This document shows positions 3,101-32,392 of a DNA stretch of 33,750 bases, piece by piece. Positions within the stretch are counted from its first letter, which is position 1. Every line of letters begins with the position of its first letter. This stretch comes from a virus. The stretch is from IMG/VR virus record IMGVR_UViG_3300010354_007956, positions 1 to 33,750 of that record; one strand, given 5' to 3'. The notes beneath the pieces are model-generated. The model was not told where the DNA came from, made no database searches, and saw only the letters and a program-made list of their open reading frames with translations. The position numbers and the translations under genes were made by a program.

Positions 3101-4351
3101 TTAACTTACATAATCGACTAAACATTGAAGTTCTGGAATAACTTCTAATAAATTTTGATTTCGTATTTTATCTATTTTTTTAGTATCTTCTAAAAATTCT
3201 ATTATCTTATTTTTATCTGGCGGTTCTGGATTATCTAGTTTTTCCAAAATTTGTCTAAGATGTTCATCTATATTTACTGGATATGTATTGGAAAAATTCA
3301 ATAACTTTTCTTTTATTTTTTGTCGCTGTTCAATAGGATATAACTCCAAATTATATATACCATCACGCATGTTTCCTTCTTGCGACAATGTAAAATTTGA
3401 GAACGAATATTCTTCTTTAATAAAATTAATATCAATTAAATATGAAATAATTTCTGGTATCCTATCAACATTGAAAATACTAACAACAATATTAGCAGAT
3501 ACATTAAAAATATTAGGACTAAATCCTAAGATAGTAAAATCATGAAATATATTAGATATTGTTTTTAAGTTACTAGATAATTTATTCCATACCGTTCCAT
3601 ACCTAACATATTCAGATCTTGATCCTATTTCATCAATACTAATATTAACAAATAGTTTAGATGAATCCCATTTAGACCATAATTTTAATATATCATTATT
3701 TTTATAATCTATTACAGAAAAATTAGTATTGTATCTCAATTCTACCTGTGACTGTTTATTATTAGCAATAAGATATTCTAACATTTCATAATGCTCATCC
3801 ATTATTAATACTTCACCACCAGAAAACTCAATGAGTTCTAAGTTATCAATATTGTCACGATACAATTTCTTAAAATCAAAATAATTGTTAACATTTAAAA
3901 TAGGTTCATCATAATAATCACCTAAATTATTAACTCTAGTTTCAAAATTAATAGAACTGCTAAGTTTTGCCCAACATGTTCTACACTTGAAATTACATTT
4001 ATTACTTAATCTGTAATCAAAACCCTTTATTTTAATTTCTTTAACGGATCCATCATCAAGTGTAATAGAATCAACCTCAGAAAAACTACTTTCAAATTTT
4101 TTATTGTAAAAATATTTTAAATTTTCATGATCAAATTCATTAGTACATGATTGGCACGATTCGGGCAAATCATCTTTAAACATATCCAATCTGAATTGCT
4201 TCATCTTATCACCATTCCAAATTTCTTCTAAAGTTTGGAATTTTAAATTTCCCAACTCAGTTGCATTACTACAACAAGGCACCACAGTTCCTTCAGGAAG
4301 TATATCCAAATAAACCCATGGTACAATACATTTGGGTATTCTATTTGCCAT
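3101..4351 (-). CDS. Radical SAM protein with N-terminal SPASM/twitch-like domain
   Basis: Radical SAM enzymes use a 4Fe-4S cluster and S-adenosylmethionine to start radical reactions. In this 416-residue protein the cluster motif CNFKCRTC (C119, C123, C126; CX3CX2C) lies after an N-terminal region, and FSGGE is found further on. The first ~80 residues look like a SPASM or twitch auxiliary-cluster domain (C8 in CIVPWVYLDI, PCC at 25-27, GNLKFQTLEEIWNG at 34-47, CQSC at 66-69). This domain normally follows the radical SAM core, so here the order is reversed. The substrate is unknown. An AATAAATA late-type promoter lies 28 bases upstream, and the gene is followed after 2 bases by the Cys-rich small gene. 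Confidence 0.85.
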   Translation of the reverse strand: MANRIPKCIVPWVYLDILPEGTVVPCCSNATELGNLKFQTLEEIWNGDKMKQFRLDMFKDDLPESCQSCTNEFDHENLKYFYNKKFESSFSEVDSITLDDGSVKEIKIKGFDYRLSNKCNFKCRTCWAKLSSSINFETRVNNLGDYYDEPILNVNNYFDFKKLYRDNIDNLELIEFSGGEVLIMDEHYEMLEYLIANNKQSQVELRYNTNFSVIDYKNNDILKLWSKWDSSKLFVNISIDEIGSRSEYVRYGTVWNKLSSNLKTISNIFHDFTILGFSPNIFNVSANIVVSIFNVDRIPEIISYLIDINFIKEEYSFSNFTLSQEGNMRDGIYNLELYPIEQRQKIKEKLLNFSNTYPVNIDEHLRQILEKLDNPEPPDKNKIIEFLEDTKKIDKIRNQNLLEVIPELQCLVDYVS

Positions 4352-20520: not shown

Positions 20521-20549
20521 ATTGTATCAAGGTAGTCAATTTTAGTCAA
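20521..20549 (-). promoter_or_regulatory. sigma70-like promoter of mazG
   Basis: TTGACT (20544-20549, 5/6), a 17-base spacer, then TACAAT (20521-20526, 5/6) on the minus strand, with mazG starting at 20497. The -35 overlaps the stop of the upstream dehydrogenase gene. One of the best promoters in the window. Confidence 0.7.
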
Positions 20550-21763
20550 GTGCTAAATCTACTGTTTCCATAATGAATTACATGATGTTCATCAGATTTA
20601 AATTTTCTCCAGGGGTCAAGAATAATACTACCACTCGGAATTTCACAATAAAGTTCATCCTTACTATCTTCGTGCCAATATGTAGTAGAAGCACTATGAG
20701 CAAGGAGAAATACTGCAGGACCATTTGGAGTATATTCATCCCCAGTGTACTTGTCAACATAAATTGGCGTTTTACCCATCTCAACACAATAATGTCCAAC
20801 TAGAAGACTATAACTACCGTCAATATAAGGAACCTTTGGTTTATACGCTTTACCATGAATAACAATAGGTAATTCATCACCAGCAAGTTCAATCAATTTC
20901 TTTGCAAGATTTTTTGCTTGAACCTCACGAGATCCCATAATACTTTCAAATAAATCATATCCAAGATCTAATTTTTCAGCAAGATACCGAAGAGCAATAT
21001 TATCTCTTGGATGACATGCACCACCATCACCCATTCCTGCAGTCATATAATGAGAACTAATAATTCTAGAAGAACCTAGACATAATGCTTTAGTAACAAC
21101 ATCAACATTAATATTACCAGATCGTTCAGCAACATCCTGTATCATGTTGACAAAACTAATCTTATTACTGATGAAGGTATTATAAAAAACTTTAATGCAC
21201 TCGCATTCGTCCCAAGTACCAACAACATATGGAGGATCATTTTCCATGATTGTTTCGTAAAAATTAATCAGTTGTTTAGCATCTCCATTCCTTTTACCAT
21301 CTTGCGTCCCAATCATAACCATCTCAGGATTAACCATATCCCAAGCGACAGAACCCATTGCGATAAGATAAGGGTTGTAAACAAATCTAGTATTCTCAAC
21401 TAAATCGCAAAATTCATTTCTAGTTGTTCCAGGAAGAACCGTAGAAATAAGAACAAGTAATTGATTTTTATTCATGTACTTGTTCGCTTCAACTAAACAC
21501 TCTTTTACAATATTATAAGAAAAATCTTTTGGTTCAAGATCCATACAAGGTTTACTACCATCATATTCAGGATCATGTGGAGTTGGAACAGCGATAAAAA
21601 CAATCTCTTTACTATCTACAACTTCTTTAATAGAACTTTTAACAGAAACCAAATCACTGTTACGCTCTAAGACATCATAACCACTCACATTATGTCCATG
21701 AAGGACGATCTCTTCGGCACACGGCATTCCAAGTTTACCAAGTCCGATAAATCCAATTTCCAT
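20546..21763 (-). CDS. UDP-glucose/GDP-mannose dehydrogenase family protein, full length
   Basis: These enzymes oxidise the C6 of a nucleotide sugar to a uronic acid with NAD. The 405-residue protein has the N-terminal Rossmann start FIGLGKLGMP (5-14), VPTPHDPEYDG (59-69), STVLPGTT (107-114), the central K191/N195 (CIKVFYNTF) and the catalytic C250 in GDGGACHPRD. It also has a C-terminal domain (IHGKAYKPKVPYIDGS) that binds the nucleotide sugar in this family. All parts are present, so it should be active; the exact sugar cannot be told. It starts 3 bases after the amidinotransferase stop, and both are read from the promoter at 22759. Confidence 0.88.
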   Translation of the reverse strand: MEIGFIGLGKLGMPCAEEIVLHGHNVSGYDVLERNSDLVSVKSSIKEVVDSKEIVFIAVPTPHDPEYDGSKPCMDLEPKDFSYNIVKECLVEANKYMNKNQLLVLISTVLPGTTRNEFCDLVENTRFVYNPYLIAMGSVAWDMVNPEMVMIGTQDGKRNGDAKQLINFYETIMENDPPYVVGTWDECECIKVFYNTFISNKISFVNMIQDVAERSGNINVDVVTKALCLGSSRIISSHYMTAGMGDGGACHPRDNIALRYLAEKLDLGYDLFESIMGSREVQAKNLAKKLIELAGDELPIVIHGKAYKPKVPYIDGSYSLLVGHYCVEMGKTPIYVDKYTGDEYTPNGPAVFLLAHSASTTYWHEDSKDELYCEIPSGSIILDPWRKFKSDEHHVIHYGNSRFST

Positions 21764-21765
21764 AA

Positions 21766-22743
21766 TTAATCCCTCTCAAGATCTAAAGTTACACAGTGAA
21801 ATCCACCACTCAAGGTGCGTTGATGCCTCATAGGTAGCATAGCACATTCTATACCAGATTTTTCAAGAACTTTCCTAGTAGGATGCTGGTGCTCTTCTAG
21901 AGCAACTAAATTTGGATTTACACTAAACAAATTCATATTTACCCACTCCGAAGCATTATTATATCCTGGATAATAACCAATGTCTATTGGTTCTGGACAC
22001 CAAATAATATCCCATTTATCAAATGGTTCGGGAAGAACATCTCTAGATTTAATTCTACTTGGATTTGCTAAAAGTAAACCTTCACGTAAGAAAGCAATTG
22101 TAGTATCAATATGAACATAACTATAAACATTTTCCAAATAATGAACTTTATATTGAACGTCCGACCCTTCATTTAAAATATTTGATATTTTCCTTCCACC
22201 AGATTTATTACCACTATTAGAAACTAGATATAAAATATGTTCGTTGGCACGTATTGCATTAGCAGCATCAAAAGCAACTATATTATCATTAAGTGCTAAA
22301 ATATCAGGATTTCCAATACATTTTTCATTATAAAGATCATCCATATAATTACATTTTAATTCTATAACATCATTATTGAAATGATGCTTCATGGATAACC
22401 AATTATTTTCTCTAGATCTTAATGGCATAGGTGCAGAAATAGCCTTATTGCCATGAATAAAAATACAATCTCTTGGACAAAAATTATAATATTCTGTTGG
22501 TTCTCTCTTTGGTCTTAAAACTTCTACATCTTGTTTTTTTAAAAAATCAACAAATATTTCCAAATCTTCATTTGCTTCATCTATAACTTGTTTTGGATAA
22601 GGTCCCGTTTTTATAGTGTTTTCATCTTGTACATCAGCATAATTAATAGTGCGAAGACTTTTATCTAAAGGAGGAATAGTCGCATAGTCTGCAACACCAA
22701 CTATTACTTTCTTTAGTTTTCCCCATTCATTAGTACTATACAT
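21766..22743 (-). CDS. Amidinotransferase (glycine / inosamine-phosphate amidinotransferase-like)
   Basis: The family moves the amidino group of arginine onto an amine, making guanidino compounds (creatine precursor, streptidine of streptomycin). The 325-residue protein has the expected triad: D159 in AFDAANAIRANE, H211 with D213 in VHIDTTIAF, and the nucleophile C317 in GGFHCVTLDLERD. PRDCIF at 90-95 matches the conserved RD element. The intact triad suggests activity as a transferase or related hydrolase. The substrate is not visible. Its position between a sugar dehydrogenase and a large sugar-modification operon containing StrS-like aminotransferases makes an amino-sugar acceptor attractive; that is inference. 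Confidence 0.88.
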   Translation of the reverse strand: MYSTNEWGKLKKVIVGVADYATIPPLDKSLRTINYADVQDENTIKTGPYPKQVIDEANEDLEIFVDFLKKQDVEVLRPKREPTEYYNFCPRDCIFIHGNKAISAPMPLRSRENNWLSMKHHFNNDVIELKCNYMDDLYNEKCIGNPDILALNDNIVAFDAANAIRANEHILYLVSNSGNKSGGRKISNILNEGSDVQYKVHYLENVYSYVHIDTTIAFLREGLLLANPSRIKSRDVLPEPFDKWDIIWCPEPIDIGYYPGYNNASEWVNMNLFSVNPNLVALEEHQHPTRKVLEKSGIECAMLPMRHQRTLSGGFHCVTLDLERD

Positions 22744-22758
22744 TTATTAAATAGAAAT

Positions 22759-22787
22759 ATTTTAAATTATTTTTATAAAATTGTCAA
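22759..22787 (-). promoter_or_regulatory. sigma70-like promoter of the amidinotransferase-dehydrogenase pair
   Basis: A perfect TTGACA (22782-22787), a 17-base spacer and TAAAAT (22759-22764, 5/6) lie on the minus strand; the gene starts at 22743. The TGA stop of the last glycosyltransferase gene is inside the -35 box, so the glycan array ends exactly on this promoter. Confidence 0.7.
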
Positions 22788-23587
22788 CAATCAACCCTAA
22801 TTGTCATTTTTTCATCGTTTGGTTTACCGTAAGTAAAAAATTCATCTAAAGTAAAATCATTCCTTTTATTGATCCACCAGTAATAATAATACTTTTTACA
22901 CAATTCATGATGTTTTCTATCTATCAATACATCATACTCGGTGCTACCAAGTTCCGTGTTTGTAGTAATTAATGGTATACAATATGTTTTTCCAGTATGA
23001 CCTATAAAATAATCTACAGTGATAGAACAGTCTTTAAAAGTTAAATCACAAACTACTTTATCTAAACAATACTTATCACCATTCATATGCAGTCTCAATA
23101 TTTTTTCTGCATATTCCCTAGTAATTAAAACTGGTCCAAAAAAACTACCCCTGGTTTTGGGGTGTAAGAAAAAGGGAATATACTCTTTAGTCTCAAAACC
23201 TAATTGAATACAGTCCCAATCATAAGGTAATCTTGACATCAAATAATCCCAATCAAAATGCCAATATCTTATCAAATTTAAATCATAATCATCTTCCATT
23301 AAAATGACATATGGATCATTAGTCGTATTTAACCACATTTTTAATGTTTCAAAATGACTTATGGCAGTTCCAACTACATATGCAGGTATATTTTTTACTT
23401 TACCTTCTATTAAGTTCGACCACTCTTTAGATCTTGAAGCTAAGTATTTTGAAGTAGAAACTCTAGTATAATTTGTTATGCCCCAATACAGAAATTGTTT
23501 TTCCATATACTCTTTTCTATCAACTCTATTATCTAAATTCAAATAATAAATGTGTGGGATATTTTTTAACTTATTAAATAAATCCAT
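22784..23587 (-). CDS. GT25-like glycosyltransferase, array copy 6 (last in operon)
   Basis: The fold resembles glycosyltransferase family 25, enzymes that often add sugars to lipopolysaccharide or proteins. The 267-residue protein starts NKLKNIPHIYYLNLDNRVDR (5-24), the usual nucleotide-sugar-binding start, and has the acidic motif EDD at 98-100 (ILMEDDYDL), intact. A FDWDYL...PYDWDCIQLGFE block follows at 111-132, then HPKT and FFGPVLITREYA. The C-terminus has the array signature WW followed by FTLDEFFTYGKPND (246-259). It is the last of six tandem paralogues and ends within the promoter at 22759. Its substrate is unknown. By eye it is close to copies 3 and 4. Confidence 0.82.
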   Translation of the reverse strand: MDLFNKLKNIPHIYYLNLDNRVDRKEYMEKQFLYWGITNYTRVSTSKYLASRSKEWSNLIEGKVKNIPAYVVGTAISHFETLKMWLNTTNDPYVILMEDDYDLNLIRYWHFDWDYLMSRLPYDWDCIQLGFETKEYIPFFLHPKTRGSFFGPVLITREYAEKILRLHMNGDKYCLDKVVCDLTFKDCSITVDYFIGHTGKTYCIPLITTNTELGSTEYDVLIDRKHHELCKKYYYYWWINKRNDFTLDEFFTYGKPNDEKMTIRVDC

Positions 23588-24405
23588 TATTCAAACAACC
23601 ACCAACTATAATTTTTAATTTTTCTAATCATAGAGATATCATTAGGTTTACCATATGTAAAAAATTCATCTAGAGTTACTTTATTAGACTGATTTTGCCA
23701 CCAATCATAATACACATTTCTACAGCAAGATATTAATTTATATTTCTTTCCATCTTTATTTAAAAACTTAGGATTAGATGGTAACAAAGGAATTGAATAT
23801 GTTTTTCCATTGTGTCCAATAAAATAATCAATAGTTCCAGAATGACCACCCATATTCATGTTGGCAATGTAATTAGATAATTTACACTTATCACCAGAAT
23901 AATGTAACTTTACTATTTTTTTAGCATAATGCCTGTTTATCAAAGATGGTCCAAATGTATGACTTGGTAATATTGGATGCAAATAAAAAGGAATTATTGA
24001 TACATTTTCAAATCCCAATTGTATACAGTCCCAATCATATGGAATATTATCCATAATTGTTTTCCAATCAAAAACCCAATGATCTATGATCTCAAAATCA
24101 GTTATATCTTTTATTAAAATAAAATATTGCTCATCAGTTTCACTCAACCATTTCTTAATGAATTCTAGAACGGATACCGCATAAGAAGCAACATTATAAT
24201 TCAATCTGTATAAATTTAAGTCTATTACCTTTTCCCCAATATTACTTTCGTTGTAGGTAGATGTAGACACTCTTTCATAATTTTCTATTCCAAATTTAGA
24301 AAACTGATCTTCGATATAATTTTTTCTATTTAAATGATGGTCATAATTCAAATAATATATTTTTGGAATTCCAATTATTTTTTCATGTAATTTCATATTA
24401 CTCAT
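23587..24405 (-). CDS. GT25-like paralogue with altered acidic motif, array copy 5
   Basis: This 272-residue member begins with a shifted start (MSNMKLHEKIIGIPKIYYLN) and keeps the DHHLNRKNYIEDQF element, PYDWDCIQLGFE and the C-terminal FTYGKPND. At the place of the catalytic EDD it reads IKDITDFEI (about 98-106), so the first acidic residue is Lys and the third is Ile. In GT-A folds this acidic group binds the metal of the sugar nucleotide, so this copy may have lost transferase activity or changed use. The reading frame is intact, arguing against simple decay. It shares one base with the next gene's end (stop/start overlap). A regulatory or partner role is a guess. Confidence 0.8.
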   Translation of the reverse strand: MSNMKLHEKIIGIPKIYYLNYDHHLNRKNYIEDQFSKFGIENYERVSTSTYNESNIGEKVIDLNLYRLNYNVASYAVSVLEFIKKWLSETDEQYFILIKDITDFEIIDHWVFDWKTIMDNIPYDWDCIQLGFENVSIIPFYLHPILPSHTFGPSLINRHYAKKIVKLHYSGDKCKLSNYIANMNMGGHSGTIDYFIGHNGKTYSIPLLPSNPKFLNKDGKKYKLISCCRNVYYDWWQNQSNKVTLDEFFTYGKPNDISMIRKIKNYSWWLFE

Positions 24406-25285
24406 ATTGCAACAATACCTGTTCTCTTATACTTATCATCTTATTAAAAAAATATTTAGGGTCACAATCAACAACACTCCTCTGCATCAAACTATCATTT
24501 GGTTTACCATAAGTAAAGAATTCATCTAAAGTAAATTTATCTCTACAGTATTTCCACCAATCATAATATGTATCTAAACATATTTGCATGTGAGGTCTAG
24601 GTAACCAAACATTGTCTTCAAAACTTCCAAAACACGGATTTAATGGTATTAATGGCAATGCATAAGTTTTTCCATTTTGACATAAAAAATAATCACCAGT
24701 ACCAGAAACACTTTTATATCCCTTATGATTTTTCCATACAGAATTCCCTATATTATTATCAAGTTTATACTTATCACCAACACAGTGCAATCTCAATAGT
24801 TTTTCAACATAACTTCTATTAAATAAACAAGGACCTAAAGAATACTCATAATTTAATGGATGAAGATAAAAAGGAATTATATCGGGGGATTCAAATCCCA
24901 ACATAATACAATCCCAATCATACGGCAATTTAGACATCAAATAGTCCCAGTCAAAATGCCAATATTCAATAATTCCCAAGTCATAATCATCTTCCATCAT
25001 TATTAGATACTCATCATCAGTAGCATCTAACCAGTGTTTTAAAAAATCAAAATGTGTTATTGCATGTGCAACAGCATAAGAAAAAGAATTTGTAGTATCA
25101 CCCAATACCAAATGCTTCCATTTTTCTTTTTCAGATACTAAAAATTTAGATGCCGATATCCTTGTAAAATTTTCTATACCCCACCTTTTAAATTGCGTTT
25201 CCATATATTTTTTTCTATCAATTCTCTCATCAAGATTTACATAGTAAATATGAGGTATATTTTTTAATTTATTTTTTATGGTCAT
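24398..25285 (-). CDS. GT25-like glycosyltransferase, array copy 4
   Basis: The 295-residue protein starts KNKLKNIPHIYYVNLDERID (4-23), has an intact acidic motif (IMMEDDYDLGIIEYW, EDD 98-100) and the PYDWDCIMLGFE block. Compared with copy 6 it has a longer insert between the GDKYKLDNNIGNS part and TGDYF (about 175-205), and a C-terminal extension of about 20 residues after GKPNDSLM. The ATG at 25285 lies within the last 17 bases of the upstream gene. Catalytic residues look complete, so an active glycosyltransferase is likely; donor and acceptor are not predictable. Confidence 0.82.
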   Translation of the reverse strand: MTIKNKLKNIPHIYYVNLDERIDRKKYMETQFKRWGIENFTRISASKFLVSEKEKWKHLVLGDTTNSFSYAVAHAITHFDFLKHWLDATDDEYLIMMEDDYDLGIIEYWHFDWDYLMSKLPYDWDCIMLGFESPDIIPFYLHPLNYEYSLGPCLFNRSYVEKLLRLHCVGDKYKLDNNIGNSVWKNHKGYKSVSGTGDYFLCQNGKTYALPLIPLNPCFGSFEDNVWLPRPHMQICLDTYYDWWKYCRDKFTLDEFFTYGKPNDSLMQRSVVDCDPKYFFNKMISIREQVLLQYE

Positions 25286-26129
25286 ACATTTTATATCTTG
25301 CTGGATTATAAACCATTAAGTGGTCATTTGGTTTTCCATACGTGAAAAATTCATCTAAAGTAAACTTATCTCTTTCATTTTTCCACCAATAATAGTATGT
25401 ATTTCTAGCCATAACATCTCCACCCTGTCGGTAAATATTGTGTTGAACTCTACTGTGATTTTCAAAACTACCAAAATCAGGATTTGTCGTTATTAAAGGT
25501 ATTGTATATGTCTTTCCAGGGTGACACATAAAATAATCAACAGTTCCAGAACCAGCAACATCTTCTTGCCGATTCCAAGCAGCACTACAAACTGTGTTTA
25601 CTAACTTATACCTGTCACCTTCACAATGCAATCTTATAAGTTTTTCAACATAATTTCTATTCAATAAACAAGGACCAAAATCATGAGCAGAATCTATAGG
25701 GTGTAAATAAAACCTAAGACCTAAAGGATTTTCATATCCCAATTGAATACAATCCCAATCATAAGGTATCCTCGTCATCAAATAATCCCAATCAAAATGC
25801 CAGTATTCTATTAAACTTAAATCATAATCATCTTCCATCAATATCAAATATTCATCATTACTACTCCTCAACCATGTTTTTAAAAAATCTAGATGCGTTA
25901 TTGCGTTGGCGGCAATAGGAACCAATAAATTATAATTCTGACAATCAATTATTAAATGTTTCCATTCATCCTTTTTAGATGCTAAAAATTTAGTTCCAGA
26001 TATTCTAGTATAGTTTTTTATACCCCAATATTTAAACTGGGTTTCCATGTATTCACGTCTATCTGTTCTATTGTCAAGATTAAAATAATAAATATGTGGT
26101 ATATTTTTTAATTTGTTATTTAAATCCAT
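25269..26129 (-). CDS. GT25-like glycosyltransferase, array copy 3
   Basis: The 286-residue protein starts NNKLKNIPHIYYFNLDNRTD (4-23). The acidic motif EDD is at 99-101 (LILMEDDYDLSLIEYW), followed by DWDYLMTRIPYDWDCIQLGY. The central HPIDSAHDFGPCLLNRNYVE and TVDYFMCHPGKTY match the other copies, and the C-terminus carries FTLDEFFTYGKPND. At DNA level it is closest by eye to copies 6 and 4: blocks of about 30 bases near 25776, 23237 and 24935 are nearly identical. This suggests recent duplication. It overlaps the upstream gene by 10 bases and the downstream gene by 17. Confidence 0.82.
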   Translation of the reverse strand: MDLNNKLKNIPHIYYFNLDNRTDRREYMETQFKYWGIKNYTRISGTKFLASKKDEWKHLIIDCQNYNLLVPIAANAITHLDFLKTWLRSSNDEYLILMEDDYDLSLIEYWHFDWDYLMTRIPYDWDCIQLGYENPLGLRFYLHPIDSAHDFGPCLLNRNYVEKLIRLHCEGDRYKLVNTVCSAAWNRQEDVAGSGTVDYFMCHPGKTYTIPLITTNPDFGSFENHSRVQHNIYRQGGDVMARNTYYYWWKNERDKFTLDEFFTYGKPNDHLMVYNPARYKMYDHKK

Positions 26130-26965
26130 AATATTTTTTGCTCATCATTCATAAATTTTATATTTAATGCTTCTCCATATACTTTATTTTGGTGATCATC
26201 TTCCAAAAAAAGTTTCATTCTGAAATCATTAGGTTTACAAAAATGAAATTTATCAAAAACAGTAAATAACTTTGATTTAGTCTTCCACCAATTCTCAACA
26301 CTGACAGATGAATTTTTTTCAATGTCATCTTCATAATTTCCCCACGTATTGAAAATTGGGAATGTATAGCATATACCCATCTCAAACAGAAAAAAATTTA
26401 TATCCCCATAATAGTACTCTTGTATGCTATAATTTTTAGTGCCATTATGTAACTTATATTTACCATCAAAAAAATGTAATTTTTTTATTTTTTTAGCAAA
26501 TTGTCTAGTTATCATAAAACATTTGGATTTACATATATCTTCATCTTTAGGTTTAAGATGCATAGAAAGAACATCAGATTTAATAACATTTAATTGTACA
26601 CAATCCCAATTATAAGGAAGACACTTCATTAAAAATTTCCAATTAAATGACCAGTATTCAGCAAGATTAATGTTTATAGTATCATCCATAAAAATACAAT
26701 ATTCATCTTCAAAATTATCATACCAATCAATAATAGATTTCAAATGAGTAAAATTATATATCAATTGATTATCAGTTAAAGATAAATCATCATCTAAAAT
26801 TACTTTCTTATAATTTTTATATTCATAAGAAATTCTTTCATAATTTGCAATATTCCATTTTATAAAATTATCTTCAATAACTTGTTTATTTTGAGTGTCT
26901 TTATCGTGATTGAAATAACGTATTCTAGGAATTCCAGTTAATTTATTTGTATTTTCTACATTCAT
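26120..26965 (-). CDS. Divergent GT25-like paralogue, array copy 2
   Basis: The 281-residue protein is the most divergent member. The start reads NKLTGIPRIRYFNHDKDTQN (7-26) and lacks the DR pair of the usual LD.R.DR element. The acidic site reads FMDDTININ (about 92-100), so Glu is replaced by Asp and the third acidic residue by Thr. It keeps PYNWDCVQLN, FDGKYKLHNG and a C-terminal WWKTKSKLFTVFDKFHFCKP that matches the signature only partly. The frame is open and overlaps both neighbours, so it is expressed as part of the array. Activity is doubtful from the missing residues; a structural or substrate-binding role is possible. Confidence 0.76.
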   Translation of the reverse strand: MNVENTNKLTGIPRIRYFNHDKDTQNKQVIEDNFIKWNIANYERISYEYKNYKKVILDDDLSLTDNQLIYNFTHLKSIIDWYDNFEDEYCIFMDDTININLAEYWSFNWKFLMKCLPYNWDCVQLNVIKSDVLSMHLKPKDEDICKSKCFMITRQFAKKIKKLHFFDGKYKLHNGTKNYSIQEYYYGDINFFLFEMGICYTFPIFNTWGNYEDDIEKNSSVSVENWWKTKSKLFTVFDKFHFCKPNDFRMKLFLEDDHQNKVYGEALNIKFMNDEQKILWI

Positions 26966-27837
26966 AATGTTATATAAGTGTTGTTAAAAGATGGTATGGT
27001 TATTGTCATTTTATAATCATTAGATTTATTATAATTAAAAAAATCTTCAGCAGTAAATTCTTGACTTTCATTCATCCACCATTTCTTGATATAATAACTA
27101 GAGAATATATCATTCATTTTATTGTGATGCATTTTTATAGTATCATCATAATCTTGCCCAGGAAATAAACTTGGTTTATTATCTGGATTTTGTGATAGAT
27201 GTTGATTTAACGAAAATAATGGTAAGGTATAATTAACACCGACTTGATAGATTAAAAAATCATCACTACTATAACAAGGTTTTTCAACTCTACAATCTCT
27301 TAAATTATTATCCAATTTAAATCCACCATCAGGTCTCAAATGCATTTTGATTAACTTTTCAGCATACCATCTGTTAATCATATAACATGCACCTGAGCAA
27401 CAATTATGAAGTCTCTTTTTAAGATGCATTGGAATATAGGCATAATGACAAAAATATAAAAGAATACAATCCCAATTATAAGGAAGGTTTTTCATCAAAT
27501 AATCCCAATCAAACATCCAATATTCTATTAAATCAAGGGATAAATCATCTTGCATAATAATACAATATTCAGAAATTCCAGAATTATACCAATCTATTAT
27601 TGTAGTAAATTGGTTCATTACAATTGAAGCGTCTGAAGGAGTTAATAACATCAAATCTAACTTATCTTTCCACTCATCAATTTTATCGATAGAATACCTA
27701 GAAGCAGAAACTCTGGTGTAATCAGTTATTCCCCATTTTTTAAATTGGGTTTCCATATTATTTTTTCTATCAATTCTATGATCTAAATTTTGATAAAATA
27801 TTGGTGGTAAATTTTTTAACTTATTATCTAAATTCAT
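26962..27837 (-). CDS. GT25-like paralogue, array copy 1 (first of six)
   Basis: The 291-residue protein starts DNKLKNLPPIFYQNLDHRID (4-23), the canonical opening. Its acidic site reads IMQDDLSLDLIEYW (QDD at 96-98): Gln replaces Glu but two Asp remain, so metal binding is possible. The PYNWDCILLYF block, HLRPDGGFKLDNN and the C-terminal FTAEDFFNYNKSND follow; Ser replaces the usual Pro of GKPND. It shares an ATGA overlap with both the upstream short DegT-like gene and the next copy. Compared with the others it has a longer insert before the WW signature. It links the array to the sugar-synthesis genes upstream. Confidence 0.78.
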   Translation of the reverse strand: MNLDNKLKNLPPIFYQNLDHRIDRKNNMETQFKKWGITDYTRVSASRYSIDKIDEWKDKLDLMLLTPSDASIVMNQFTTIIDWYNSGISEYCIIMQDDLSLDLIEYWMFDWDYLMKNLPYNWDCILLYFCHYAYIPMHLKKRLHNCCSGACYMINRWYAEKLIKMHLRPDGGFKLDNNLRDCRVEKPCYSSDDFLIYQVGVNYTLPLFSLNQHLSQNPDNKPSLFPGQDYDDTIKMHHNKMNDIFSSYYIKKWWMNESQEFTAEDFFNYNKSNDYKMTITIPSFNNTYITL

Positions 27838-28433
27838 TTTCTAAAAACCTCCATGTCTGGAAGATAGGGATAATTTAAATATCCATATCTTTTGGGTTCT
27901 TTATATGCAACATCTTTAAACTTTTCAATTCCCATTGATGCTATTTCTGGGGTCATATAATAATGATATCCAATCATTTTTATATTTTGTTCACCCCATG
28001 GTTTATCGGATGATCTACCATCATATACCATTTTTTTAAGTACATCATATGCTTCTTTGTTATCCAACAAAATTATTCCACCTCTACCCAAACTTAAATG
28101 TTTTCTAAATTGAAAACTTACACACATATAAGTATTTTTAATGTAACTATTCTGCTTCCATAAGAATGCAGCGTCTATTATATTTGTATTCCCAAGATAA
28201 TAATAATCTCTCCATTGATAATTTCTTTGCCAATCCCACTTCAATCCTAGTTTTTCTGCAGTAAATGGAATTGAAATATAGGTATGCTCAGGAATAAGAA
28301 TATTATTGTATTGTTCATATCTCAAACATAATTCTACGGCATGAGTGCAACAATCCGTTGCCACTGCATAAGGTGAACCAAAAAATTCAGATATTATTTT
28401 TTCAAAATCTTCGATGACAGAAAAATTATTCAT
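27834..28433 (-). CDS. Short DegT/DnrJ/EryC1/StrS aminotransferase-like protein
   Basis: Family members put an amino group on a keto sugar using PLP. This protein is 199 residues, about half the usual ~370. The large-domain parts are present: EDFEKIISEFFGSPYAVATD start, PEHTYISIPFTAEKLG, D87 in NIIDAAF (pyridine partner) and K111 in SFQFRKHLSLGRGG (PLP lysine). The family's C-terminal small domain is missing or replaced by ~70 residues ending LNYPYLPDMEVFRK. The frame is open with ATGA overlaps on both sides, so it is not a simple truncation. It could be active as a minimal enzyme, or act with the full-length homologue at 31253. Confidence 0.78.
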   Translation of the reverse strand: MNNFSVIEDFEKIISEFFGSPYAVATDCCTHAVELCLRYEQYNNILIPEHTYISIPFTAEKLGLKWDWQRNYQWRDYYYLGNTNIIDAAFLWKQNSYIKNTYMCVSFQFRKHLSLGRGGIILLDNKEAYDVLKKMVYDGRSSDKPWGEQNIKMIGYHYYMTPEIASMGIEKFKDVAYKEPKRYGYLNYPYLPDMEVFRK

Positions 28434-29071
28434 ATTGATTTACTATAAAGAACAAAATCCTTTTCATACAATTTATAAAAATATTTTAAATCCATTCTAA
28501 CATAGGTATAAAATATTTTTTCACACATAAGTTTTGTAATTATATTACTCTCTCTTTCTTTTTGAAGAGATATTTTTGAATGGTGTAATAGTTGATTTAT
28601 TTTATCCTCTAATTTATCATCCAATTTTAAATAAGTATTATCTAATTTATCTATGTAGGGATCTATGAATACGTGTTGTGGAGAAGTGTGATAATCAAAT
28701 ATGTATTTTTTATTTTTTATTTGTTCAATAATATAATTAGTTGATACATCAAACCTATTCATAAATTCACCAAGTGCAGAAATCCATCTTTTTATTGGAT
28801 CCCTAATCACACAAAAAGACTTATATTTTTTATAATCTAATAACATTTCAATATCATTTACATCAATATTAGTCATATCAATAAACATTAAATTTTTTAA
28901 TGCTGATGAAATCGATGTACTAGCACATTTGTCTATATGTAAATATACTAATTTCTCCTTTGTACTCATATAACACCCATTATATTCCCTACATTTATCA
29001 ACTTCTAAATTTTCACATTTAAAGGTAAAAGAAGAACAATAATCACCATACAGATTTATAATATTATTCAT
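28430..29071 (-). CDS. Sulfotransferase-like protein
   Basis: Sulfotransferases move sulfate from PAPS to sugars or proteins. The 213-residue protein has a 5'-phosphosulfate-binding loop HIDKCASTSI at 45-54 (family form HxxKTGGTSI, here with Cys-Ala-Ser) and a 3'-phosphate-binding motif VIRDPIKRWISA at 88-99 (R90, R95, S98). Both are characteristic of the carbohydrate sulfotransferase group (Sulfotransfer_2). The rest is helical and Lys/Tyr-rich. Overlap with the upstream oxygenase is 8 bases. In this operon the natural substrate would be the sugar made or attached by the neighbours, which is inference. Confidence 0.82.
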   Translation of the reverse strand: MNNIINLYGDYCSSFTFKCENLEVDKCREYNGCYMSTKEKLVYLHIDKCASTSISSALKNLMFIDMTNIDVNDIEMLLDYKKYKSFCVIRDPIKRWISALGEFMNRFDVSTNYIIEQIKNKKYIFDYHTSPQHVFIDPYIDKLDNTYLKLDDKLEDKINQLLHHSKISLQKERESNIITKLMCEKIFYTYVRMDLKYFYKLYEKDFVLYSKSI

Positions 29072-29585
29072 TCAAAATTCTAGCGGTCACTTGTAATGTA
29101 TATCTATTTTCTCGACCAATATTTGCGGCAACATGTGGAGCTTCACCCAACCACATACAACAATCACCTTTATTCCAGTTCACTATTGGATCATCATCAA
29201 CTTCAAAATAATGACCAGATTTCCAGTCATCCAAAAAAACTAAAATTCTACATACCTGATTAGGGTCATCAATACCAAGCATTTTTTTATAGACGGGATA
29301 TGTATCTTTATGCTCTGGCATTATTGTTCCTGGTGGCATACAATATAAACATAATTTTGGATTAGTTATTTTAAACTTATTACTTAATTGATTGAGTACA
29401 TCATAACACCAACTAGGAAGTCCCTTATATTCTTCAATTAAAAATCCAGTATAATTAACATATAAATGACCAAGATCTTTCCAATGATTTACAGTACTAT
29501 CATCGGGAAACTGTCTTCTCGGGGAGTATACCAAATCTTCAAAATTACCTATAAGATCTGGATTTATTTTTTCAAAGTAATGCAT
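29064..29585 (-). CDS. 2-oxoglutarate/Fe(II)-dependent oxygenase, Asp/Asn hydroxylase-like
   Basis: These enzymes hydroxylate substrates using 2-oxoglutarate, oxygen and iron. From the ATG at 29585 the product is 173 residues with the iron triad H92 and D94 (PEHKDTY) and H151 (APHVAANIG), and R161 (RYTLQVT) for 2-oxoglutarate. The pattern near the second His resembles aspartyl/asparaginyl beta-hydroxylases. A TTG at 29615 would add ten residues and overlap the upstream gene by 44 bases; the ATG still overlaps it by 14. The substrate could be a sugar or a protein. Confidence 0.82.
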   Translation of the reverse strand: MHYFEKINPDLIGNFEDLVYSPRRQFPDDSTVNHWKDLGHLYVNYTGFLIEEYKGLPSWCYDVLNQLSNKFKITNPKLCLYCMPPGTIMPEHKDTYPVYKKMLGIDDPNQVCRILVFLDDWKSGHYFEVDDDPIVNWNKGDCCMWLGEAPHVAANIGRENRYTLQVTARILNE

Positions 29586-30495
29586 TGTTCTTATACCATT
29601 TACAAGTTTTTTCAAGTCCTTCTTGTATTGAAGTAAACTTTGTAATATTAGTTATATTGCACATCAGTTCGATATTTGGAGATCTTCTATCAACAGACCC
29701 ATCTTTAAAATTTAAATTCAAAATTTCAGATTTATAATCAAATATAGAAAATATTTTATAAACCAAATCTCTTATAGAAATTTCATCATTAACACCAATA
29801 TTAATAATTTTACGATTACTATGCTCACTATTCATAATACTCTCAAGCATTAATATTGCATCATCAACGTAACAAAAAGATCTGGTTTGATTTCCACCAT
29901 AAACTTTAAAGGGATTTTCTTTTAAAAGAACACGGTTAATAACTTCGGGAATTACATGGTTATATCCCATTCTTGGACCATAGATATTGTGAGGTCTGAC
30001 TATGGAAAAATTAAGACCAGAATTTATAAACATCAATTCACCAAGTATTTTACTTCCAGCATAAGACCATCTTGGATTGTAAACATTATTAATTGAAACT
30101 GTAACATCTTCTTTTGTTGGTATCTCTTTATCGACAGTAGATGCGTACACTTCAGATGATGAAGTATATAATACCTTTTTCACCCCAGTCTTCTTACACC
30201 ATTTTATAAAATTTATATTAATCAAAGTATTAATTTCTAAAACTTGATATGGCATTTCATAAAAATTACTAGTGCCATTTATAGCAGCAAAATGGTATAC
30301 ATAATCATATTTTCCTAGTTTTTCGTACTCATCTTCCTTTGTTAAATCACACTCAATATAAGCGATATCTTTTACAAACTCATCTACTTTACCCCTAAAA
30401 TTATTATCGCATATAGTTACATCATTATTTTTAGACAAATGCCTAGCTAAATGAGATCCTATAAATCCAGTTCCACCAGTTATAAGTATTTTCAT
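29572..30495 (-). CDS. NAD-dependent nucleotide-sugar epimerase/dehydratase
   Basis: The protein belongs to the extended short-chain dehydrogenase family that epimerises or dehydrates nucleotide sugars. The 307-residue protein has the NAD-binding TGGTGFIGSH (6-15), the serine motif TSSSEVY (111-117) and the catalytic pair Y145 and K149 (SYAGSKILGE). RPHNIYGPRMGYN and a C-terminal GGNQTRSFCYVDDAI complete the family features, so the enzyme appears intact. A dehydratase product (4-keto sugar) would be the natural substrate for the DegT aminotransferases in the same operon. Overlap with the upstream dehydrogenase gene is ATGA. Confidence 0.9.
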   Translation of the reverse strand: MKILITGGTGFIGSHLARHLSKNNDVTICDNNFRGKVDEFVKDIAYIECDLTKEDEYEKLGKYDYVYHFAAINGTSNFYEMPYQVLEINTLININFIKWCKKTGVKKVLYTSSSEVYASTVDKEIPTKEDVTVSINNVYNPRWSYAGSKILGELMFINSGLNFSIVRPHNIYGPRMGYNHVIPEVINRVLLKENPFKVYGGNQTRSFCYVDDAILMLESIMNSEHSNRKIINIGVNDEISIRDLVYKIFSIFDYKSEILNLNFKDGSVDRRSPNIELMCNITNITKFTSIQEGLEKTCKWYKNNALL

Positions 30496-31256
30496 AAAAA
30501 TTTTTTATTATCCTCAATGATTGTTTCAAATAATTTAATATTTAAATTATTTTGTTTACAATAATTATCCATTGCTAGTGTGTCTTTTGGTAAACAAGAA
30601 CCAGAAAATCCTCTAAGATTTTTATTACAATTTAAATACAATCCAGATATAAAATCTTTTTTAGTGAGGGCATTTTTAACATCATCATAATTGACATTAA
30701 GATTTTCACATATTTCATAAAAAACATTTGCTAAAGTAATCATAGTAGCATTATGAATGTTATGAAAATATTTTAAAATTTCACTCTGAGTTGGATTTAA
30801 CATAATATAGTTTTTGGGATAAAACCCATGAGATTTTTTAACTATTTCAAAAATACTTTCATCTAAAGTTCCAACAATACATATATCATGATTATCCATA
30901 AAATCAGATACTGCACATCGTTCTCTAAGAAATTCTGGAACGTGGCATATTTTTAAATCATACAAATCTATCAAGTTTTGTGTTGTTCCTGGTTCAACGG
31001 TAGATTTTATAGCAACTACGCCTTGATAATTTAATAAATTAAGTTGGGTTACAACATCAAGTACAATAGAAGTATCACATTTACCTTCAGATGTGCTTGG
31101 AGTAGGAACACAAATATAGCAAATGTCCGTCTCCAAAACATCATTAATTTTAGTTTTTAAAATAATGTCATGAGGGATAACTTCATATCCCAATCTACTA
31201 AAGCAATATTCCAGTGTTTTACCAACAACTCCTAAACCAATAATACCTATCCTCAT
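30492..31256 (-). CDS. Short UDP-glucose/GDP-mannose dehydrogenase-like protein
   Basis: The 254-residue protein matches only the first two domains of the family. It has GIIGLGVVGK (4-13), CVPTPSTSEGKCD (49-61), KSTVEPGTT (84-92), PEFLRE (107-112), E159 and K162 (SEILKYFHN), and the catalytic C221 in GSCLPKD. It stops at KLFETIIEDNKKFL, where other members continue with the ~100-residue nucleotide-sugar-binding domain. The full-length relative lies at 20546. Catalytic residues are intact, so a reduced enzyme or one that borrows binding from a partner is possible. The stop is followed immediately by the epimerase in an ATGA overlap. Confidence 0.82.
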   Translation of the reverse strand: MRIGIIGLGVVGKTLEYCFSRLGYEVIPHDIILKTKINDVLETDICYICVPTPSTSEGKCDTSIVLDVVTQLNLLNYQGVVAIKSTVEPGTTQNLIDLYDLKICHVPEFLRERCAVSDFMDNHDICIVGTLDESIFEIVKKSHGFYPKNYIMLNPTQSEILKYFHNIHNATMITLANVFYEICENLNVNYDDVKNALTKKDFISGLYLNCNKNLRGFSGSCLPKDTLAMDNYCKQNNLNIKLFETIIEDNKKFL

Positions 31257-32392
31257 AGTTTTTCGTACCTCGATACAATATTAATAATTTTATCTACATC
31301 AGAATTAGTCATTTCATAATGACAAGGTATCATTATGTGATGATCTTCAGCATATTGAACATTTACTAAAGAATTATCAATTCCACCAAAAATTGGATAT
31401 TGATCTAGTCTTCTATTATTCATATGCACATGAATATTATTTTCCCACATTAACTCAGCAAATTTTTTCCTATCCTTAACAAATATTGGAAATATCTGAT
31501 AGTTCGGAACATTATAATCACTATATTTTACCAATTTTATATTTTCAAAATTTTTAAATGCCTCTCTATATCTTTGACCAATATATCTTCTACGATCTAA
31601 ACATCTATCCAAATAATTTAGTGCAATATTTGCCATAGATGCGGTGATATCATTCATATTTAATTTAAATCCTAAAGTATCTGGCATATAATCAAAAAAT
31701 GGATCTACATTCATACTTCCATCTCTAGCATCCCGATCTATACCAAACCACAAAGATTTTTTCAATTTACTATAATATTCATCATTACTAGTAGTAACAA
31801 ACCCACCATCACCACAAGTAATTATCTTTACTGTTTGAAGAGAAAATGTACACAATTCACCAGATCCAATTTTTTCCCCTTTATAATAAGATCCCATTGC
31901 ATGACAACAATCTTCAATTAATGGTAGATTATACCTTTTACAAACATCACGCAGTTCATCGAGATCAACTGGATTTCCAGCAAAATGAACACAAACTACT
32001 GCTTTTGTTTTTTTGGTTATTTTTCCTTCCACACTTTTTGGATCAATATTCAAAGTATCTTTTTGAATATCTGCAAATACTGGTTTTGCACCCATCTCAA
32101 GTATAGCAGTATTAGTTGCAATAAAAGTCCAGGGAGTAGTAATTACCTCATCCCCAGACTTTATTCCTATAGCAGAATATGCAGATTTTAATGATCCAGT
32201 TCCACTAGTAGTTGCAACTGAATATTTTGCATTAAATATTTTACATATTTTTTCCCTCAACACTCTTTCTTTTTTTCCAGTATTAATCCAACCTGATTTT
32301 AGGACTTCAGAAATATCTTTATCCAAATCTTCAGGTATAAATGCACCAGAGCATCTAATTTCTTTTCCTAAATTTCCGTCGTATTTAAACAT
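31253..32392 (-). CDS. DegT/DnrJ/EryC1/StrS aminotransferase, full length
   Basis: This PLP enzyme transfers an amino group to a keto sugar nucleotide. The 379-residue protein shows TSGTGSLKSA (62-71), TTPWTFIATN (85-94), D161 in PLIEDCCHAMGS, and the PLP lysine K189 in SLQTVKIITCGDGG. The C-terminal domain with NDITASMANIALN and the substrate-facing HYEM segment is present, so it is complete, in contrast to the 199-residue relative at 27834. In antibiotic and surface-polysaccharide pathways such enzymes act after a dehydratase, matching the epimerase/dehydratase here. It overlaps the upstream oxygenase gene by 8 bases. Confidence 0.92.
   Translation of the reverse strand: MFKYDGNLGKEIRCSGAFIPEDLDKDISEVLKSGWINTGKKERVLREKICKIFNAKYSVATTSGTGSLKSAYSAIGIKSGDEVITTPWTFIATNTAILEMGAKPVFADIQKDTLNIDPKSVEGKITKKTKAVVCVHFAGNPVDLDELRDVCKRYNLPLIEDCCHAMGSYYKGEKIGSGELCTFSLQTVKIITCGDGGFVTTSNDEYYSKLKKSLWFGIDRDARDGSMNVDPFFDYMPDTLGFKLNMNDITASMANIALNYLDRCLDRRRYIGQRYREAFKNFENIKLVKYSDYNVPNYQIFPIFVKDRKKFAELMWENNIHVHMNNRRLDQYPIFGGIDNSLVNVQYAEDHHIMIPCHYEMTNSDVDKIINIVSRYEKL

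Follow-up and report, generated by a model that had tools for sequence, protein, structure and literature searches.

Six tandem GT25-like transferases in a T4-like cyanophage: conserved paralogues with remodelled active sites in a putative glycan-elaboration operon

The stretch of DNA analysed here (hereafter, the window) comprises 33,750 bases, positions 1-33,750 of the IMG/VR virus record IMGVR_UViG_3300010354_007956, and contains a tandem array of six homologous genes for putative glycosyltransferases (GTs). We consider it probable, at roughly 0.6, that this array belongs to a glycan-elaboration operon of T4-like cyanophages in which the GT paralogues are specialised, with g1, g3 and g4 acting as catalysts and g2, g5 and perhaps g6 as their partners. 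The best reading of the sequence comparisons is that the array paralogues are long-diverged specialists, and every copy, those with altered active-site motifs included, is under purifying selection and is a maintained protein.

The array consists of six open reading frames (ORFs) in succession on the minus strand that occupy positions 22784-27837, comprise 267, 272, 295, 286, 281 and 291 codons, and overlap their neighbours by 1, 8, 17, 10 and 4 bases, exactly the layout reported in an earlier note on this DNA. The genes are named g1 to g6 by window order and are transcribed in the direction from g6 to g1. Other genes of the window, including those for primase, helicase, NrdA/B, TalC and MazG, are of the T4-like cyanophage type, and the annotated relatives are all Synechococcus or Prochlorococcus phages or marine cyanophage-like records; the virus probably infects cyanobacteria. 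The G+C content of the array is 27%, clearly below the 33% of the window.

22784..23587, minus strand: g1, GT25-like transferase, canonical; NLDNRVDR; EDD at 23288-23296, DWD at 23213-23221; phrog_2835, E 8.5e-53
23587..24405, minus strand: g2, paralogue with charge-reversed acidic motif; KDI at 24103-24111, NYDHHLNR, DWD kept at 24028-24036; phrog_2835, E 1.9e-37
24398..25285, minus strand: g3, GT25-like transferase, canonical in the window; EDD at 24986-24994, DWD at 24911-24919; phrog_2835, E 4.9e-47
25269..26129, minus strand: g4, GT25-like transferase, canonical; EDD at 25827-25835, DWD at 25752-25760; phrog_2835, E 5.3e-47
26120..26965, minus strand: g5, fastest-evolving paralogue, acidic motif eroded; DDT at 26678-26686, NWD at 26603-26611; phrog_2835, E 1.9e-31
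26962..27837, minus strand: g6, paralogue with a fixed E-to-Q change, the most strongly conserved copy; QDD at 27544-27552, NWD at 27469-27477; phrog_2835, E 4.2e-40

Family, fold and active sites

All six proteins match phrog_2835, the cyanophage 'glucosyltransferase' family, over most of their length (E 1.9e-31 to 8.5e-53) and are 30-59% identical to each other in pairwise comparisons, so that the homology within the array is not due to chance. AlphaFold2 models were obtained for the canonical g4 and the altered-motif g2, with predicted local distance difference test (pLDDT) scores of 87.4 and 87.9, respectively. In a Foldseek search, the g4 model adopts the GT-A fold and matches mimivirus R655 (E 5e-9), COLGALT1 (E 6e-7) and a bacterial β-1,4-galactosyltransferase (E 1e-6), with template modelling (TM) scores of 0.44-0.60. 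The g2 model retrieves the same solved enzymes, R655, COLGALT1 and the bacterial GT25 β-1,4-galactosyltransferase, indicating that the fold of g2 is retained. Judged from these models, g1-g6 are GT25-like transferases of the GT-A fold, which agrees with the family assignment in the earlier note: neither unrelated families nor a non-GT fold emerged among the copies, and the membership of all six in one transferase family, distinct from the single-copy cyanophage homologue, was borne out.

The same note had described three sequence features as common to the six copies, and only one of these is. Every copy carries the PY[DN]WDC block, which reads DWD in g1-g4 and NWD in g5 and g6. The start NKLKN[IL]P together with NLD.R.DR is confined to g1, g3, g4 and g6; the corresponding region reads HEKIIGIP..NYDHHLNR in g2 and TNKLTGIP..NHDKDTQN in g5. 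The acidic site differs among the copies, being EDD in g1, g3 and g4, QDD in g6, KDI in g2 and DDT in g5. Thus, the N-terminal NL.xR.DR and EDD motifs of GT25 are complete in g1, g3 and g4, partial in g6 (QDD), and both lacking in g2 and g5. By motif and context, although not by coordinate superposition, the PY[DN]WDC block is the counterpart of D461-W-D463 in human GLT25D1, a segment that was verified letter for letter in the PDB chains; mutation of this DXD (461-463) abolishes the activity of GLT25D1 (PMC3244457).

Conservation, selection and origin of the arrays

IMG/VR was scanned with single array copies and with two profiles, which yielded 137 non-redundant loci at which the family is represented; 78 of these hold at least two copies, copy numbers being undercounted at loci cut by contig ends. 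Used on its own as the query, g5 retrieved no relatives, because this gene evolves too fast for a pattern search. Orthologous arrays of five or six genes with conserved order are present at about 30 further IMG/VR loci, so the array is not an oddity of one phage. In these window-type (type A) arrays, which lie between the gp41 helicase and mazG genes, the order is fixed as g6-g5-g4-g3-g2-g1, or the same with g3 missing; it is g3 that the five-copy arrays lack. A second six-copy arrangement, type B, is found at L133, L134, L137, L144, L153, L154, L161 and L162; other arrays hold from two to five copies. Among 50,697 phage records, 97 match the family, and an array is present only in Synechococcus phage S-SCSM2R (five places). 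Isolate genomes almost always carry one family copy, S-SCSM2R being the clear exception, and the amplification noticed earlier is accordingly real. Related large contigs (G001-G003), as well as S-SCSM2R, also carry one single-type copy elsewhere in the genome.

The active-site differences seen in the window are fixed features of the respective orthologues. In type A arrays, EDD is present in all 29 g1 and all 30 g4 orthologues and in 11 of the 13 orthologues of g3; g6 invariably lacks it, with QDD in 28/28. The g2 orthologues all conform to [KR]D[TISCQ] (30/30), with a basic first position and a third position that is never acidic, and those of g5 retain EDD in a single case out of 30, with NWD in all 30. 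In type B, the copy p6 has [SP]DH in 7/7 copies compared. Drift would not be expected to fix a reversed charge in g2. Because g2 keeps D100 and D103 invariant, along with DWD, we do not call it dead.

The median ratio of nonsynonymous to synonymous substitution rates (dN/dS) among orthologues is 0.07 for g1, 0.09 for g2, 0.19 for g3, 0.09 for g4, 0.09 for g5 (range reaching 0.33), 0.03 (0.031) for g6 and 0.15 for type B p6. These are rough Nei-Gojobori values, with pairs partly saturated and many dS near or above 1; the ortholog pairs with dS below 0.6 show the same picture. Nearly all arrays encode g2 and g5 at full length.

In a tree of 74 sequences, g1 to g6 each form a strongly supported clade, and the 40 single copies fall apart from every array copy; a tree of 122 sequences reveals two deep classes, one with NWD, comprising g5 and g6 as well as p3 and p4 of type B, and one with DWD, to which the remaining copies belong. 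The approximately unbiased (AU) test rejects a clade uniting all six copies of type A (p 1.7e-4) and likewise one uniting the six of type B (p 9e-5). Neither six-copy array therefore goes back to one origin, and the two six-copy states were reached separately, each by expansion of a smaller ancestral set. Loss of EDD as one event is rejected as well: g2 and type B p6 do not form a clade (p 8e-4), nor do g2 and g5 (p 4e-4), implying at least three independent changes of the acidic motif, in g2, g5 and type B p6. There is no sign of gene conversion or concerted evolution. Each copy groups with its orthologues and not with its neighbours, which runs counter to the ongoing diversification suggested in the earlier note. 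At one locus, L141, p3 and p4 are a recent duplicate pair.

No convincing cellular homologue was found, the sole cellular match being L091, a Saprospiraceae contig from a metagenome-assembled genome in GTDB. The content of L091 resembles a cyanophage glycan cluster, and it is probably a misbinned phage contig. A host origin of the array was considered and rejected given that this only cellular match looks like a phage glycan cluster.

Neighbouring genes and the possible function of the operon

The array is embedded among genes for predicted sugar-tailoring enzymes:

20546..21763, minus strand: UDP-glucose/GDP-mannose dehydrogenase family protein; PF00984 E 1e-17, PF03721 E 2.9e-15; conserved partner in window-type loci
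21766..22743, minus strand: StrB-type (inosamine-phosphate) amidinotransferase; phmmer match to PDB 1bwd, E 4.7e-54, residues 5-324; conserved partner
27834..28433, minus strand: short DegT/DnrJ/EryC1-type aminotransferase, 199 amino acids (aa); PF01041 E 7e-15; synteny
28430..29071, minus strand: sulfotransferase (Sulfotransfer_2); PF03567 E 2.8e-7; constant in window-type loci, fast-evolving
29064..29615, minus strand: aspartyl/asparaginyl beta-hydroxylase-like 2-oxoglutarate (2OG) enzyme; PF05118 E 3.6e-6; conserved module partner
29572..30495, minus strand: NAD-dependent sugar epimerase/dehydratase; PF01370 E 4.7e-46; accessory, missing from some relatives
30492..31256, minus strand: second nucleoside diphosphate (NDP)-sugar dehydrogenase, short form; PF03721 E 8.5e-21; accessory
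31253..32392, minus strand: full-length DegT-family aminotransferase; PF01041 E 1.2e-87; accessory

The short DegT, the Asp-hydroxylase-like enzyme and the StrB-type amidinotransferase recur next to arrays across architectures, the short DegT being the commonest neighbour, found beside the arrays in nearly all of them. Type A loci additionally contain the sulfotransferase, the NDP-sugar dehydrogenase and MazG; in other array types, a 2OG protein of about 400 aa is encoded directly upstream, sometimes together with radical S-adenosylmethionine (SAM)/SPASM enzymes. The amidinotransferase matches 1bwd over its full length, and its C-terminal GGFHC block is retained and aligned.

Dehydrogenation, transamination and amidination constitute the logic of streptidine-type guanidino sugars (the Str/Sts pathway), and for this reason we favour an amino- or guanidino-sugar product. 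We propose that the tailoring enzymes (NDP-sugar dehydrogenase, DegTs, StrB-type amidinotransferase, sulfotransferase, Asp-hydroxylase-like and 2OG enzymes) would synthesise or alter an unusual sugar that probably bears an amino or guanidino substitution, and that the tandem GT25-like transferases would transfer sugars of this kind to a glycosylated protein or to a glycan at the surface. The predicted catalysts are g1, g3 and g4, with their canonical EDD and DWD. The remodelled copies, namely, g2 with its fixed E-to-K/R change, the eroded g5 and perhaps g6 with its fixed E-to-Q change, most likely serve in a multi-GT complex as partners or acceptor-binding subunits that do not catalyse transfer themselves; the main alternative is that, if catalytic, they are metal-independent or altered-specificity enzymes. 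The analysis demonstrates homology, fold, conserved gene order, the motif pattern, purifying selection and linkage, from which it goes on to infer the glycan product, the donor sugar, the acceptor and the partner role. A broader interpretation is tentative and less likely than not: in cyanophages, tandem duplication would have produced multi-subunit GT complexes in which the acidic motif was lost at least three times, the altered paralogues would be essential directing subunits, non-catalytic or metal-independent, and the guanidino- or amino-sugar glycan would be new to phages.

Several points weigh against the proposed operon function. The best Pfam PF01755 (Glyco_transf_25) score is 15.7 bits, for g1, below the curated cut-off of 24 bits; g3 and g4 give the only other sub-threshold matches, lower than that of g1, and the Pfam search returned none for g2, g5 and g6. 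The TM-scores of the g2 and g4 models are moderate (0.40-0.60), signifying a shared fold family with no close relative. The activity, substrates and complex of g1-g6 are predictions from sequence and models, and g2 could possess a non-canonical metal site formed by D100 and D103. Some arrays have EDD in all copies (e.g., L139, L141, L213 and L221), so an altered copy is not obligatory and the change of the acidic motif is frequent, not universal. Amidinotransferases also act on non-sugar amines, which makes the guanidino sugar a guess.

The earlier note suggested stepwise assembly of an oligosaccharide, and in its strict form this would have all six proteins active, adding successive sugars to one chain. 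The fold family is common to the six, all are under purifying selection, and an altered motif need not mean inactivity, given that some GT-A enzymes function without a DXD metal site and that g2 keeps D100 and D103. However, EDD is missing from g2, g5 and g6 in 30/30, 29/30 and 28/28 orthologues, respectively, and relatives manage with five copies (no g3) or with two to four, so that six steps are not required. We regard this scenario as unlikely, and the idea of equivalent transferases is not supported, considering that g2, g5 and, more mildly, g6 are remodelled in every related phage under purifying selection.

Protein O-glycosylation, by which the hydroxylases of the module would modify a phage structural protein that COLGALT-like transferases then glycosylate, as in collagen, also seems rather improbable. 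The nearest solved structures do include collagen glycosyltransferases or putative ones (COLGALT1 and R655), and 2OG/Asp-hydroxylase genes are constant neighbours, with the ~400 aa 2OG protein directly upstream in several architectures. Nevertheless, a search for a collagen-like substrate found no convincing Gly-X-Y protein in most of the 246.5 kb of the relative G001, where a single six-unit run was detected; bacterial GT25 enzymes that act on lipopolysaccharide match about equally well, and the sugar-nucleotide and amidinotransferase genes would be left unexplained.

Glycosylation of modified bases in phage DNA, as in T4, is suggested by the location of the array next to the gp41 helicase and primase/NrdAB genes. 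The fold neighbours, however, act on glycans or proteins, and base-modifying partners were not detected: neither PF00303 (thymidylate synthase/dCMP hydroxymethylase) nor PF00145 (C5 methyltransferase) has a match in the window, G001, G002, G003 or S-SCSM2R, records that might be incomplete, and Tet_JBP (PF12851) yields matches below the cut-off only. DNA hypermodification is for this reason very unlikely. That g2 and g5 are relics, decaying duplicates in a duplication-prone island, would fit their degraded motifs and the fast evolution of g5 but is hardly credible, because nearly every array has full-length versions of the two, their median dN/dS is 0.09 and the charge reversal in g2 is fixed (30/30), such that decay of the altered copies is ruled out by dN/dS and fixed motifs.

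Some features of the surrounding genes deserve mention in their own right. The short DegT, at about 195-199 aa compared with the usual ~370, aligns to parts of the Pfam profile only, and it (27834-28433) has no sequence match in the PDB. Apart from the arrays, amidinotransferases are found in a dozen T4-like Campylobacter phages (24-26% identity) and are otherwise nearly unseen among sequenced phages. A SPASM/radical SAM protein is encoded in the window at 3101-4351, distant from the array; its homologues (44-45% identity) adjoin the array module in L139 and L155. The ~400 aa protein directly upstream of the array, represented by L137:4944-6149 and present in several architectures, combines a PHROGs 'ferrochelatase' domain (3531/2954), a doubtful label, with a 2OG oxygenase. 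Upstream of type B arrays, three successive ORFs of 172-177 aa (L137:2412-4043), with similar-sized ORFs in other loci, have no Pfam or PHROG match and are possibly another tandem family.

Comparison with known systems

The closest known relatives of the array genes belong to the same family, phrog_2835 'glucosyltransferase' (T4-GC 266), exemplified by PSSM2_271 of P-SSM2. In Synechococcus and Prochlorococcus T4-like phages, the T4-GC 266 gene is single-copy and forms a tree branch separate from all array copies. These single-copy homologues have EDD in 47/47 cases where the motif is readable, and in P-SSM2, S-SM2 and S-SCSM2R the gene is the last of an annotated glycan cluster. GT clusters are common in cyanophages; what the array adds is a defined, repeatedly evolved paralogue set that predicts catalytic and non-catalytic copies as well as tailoring partners. 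A literature search found no papers on tandem GTs in cyanophages. The system is real, conserved and under-noticed; GT25-like phage transferases are a known kind, and the unusual aspects are the copy number and the repeated, selected remodelling of the active site.

Among isolates, Synechococcus phage S-SCSM2R carries four array copies, annotated as GT25/glycosyltransferase, at 229579-236332. The neighbours are as in the window, namely, a short DegT, a 2OG/Asp-hydroxylase-like enzyme and an amidinotransferase (68% identical); the differences are that the copies are interrupted by other genes and form a different set. No published analysis of this locus was found in the literature search. The array is common in uncultured cyanophages, and with S-SCSM2R, which infects Synechococcus WH7803, as the one clear isolate representative, the use of the phage sugar-building genes is testable.

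Beyond phages, COLGALT1/GLT25D1, R655 and the bacterial β-1,4-galactosyltransferase (8xgx) have the GT-A fold, N..R.DR, EDD and D-W-D in common with the canonical array copies, whereas identity by structural alignment is merely 12-17%, and the phage copies fall below the Pfam GT25 cut-off and occur in tandem. A parallel to g2 and g5 within the GT25 family is CEECAM1, a COLGALT1 paralogue that is inactive in the collagen assay and is retained despite an incomplete DXD (PMC3244457). CEECAM1 is not a phage protein, and its change affects the DXD at 461-463, whereas the alteration of g2 and g5 lies mainly in EDD. The phage arrays, in which the acidic motif was lost repeatedly while purifying selection continued to act, amount to a natural experiment on how transferase paralogues may turn into partner subunits.

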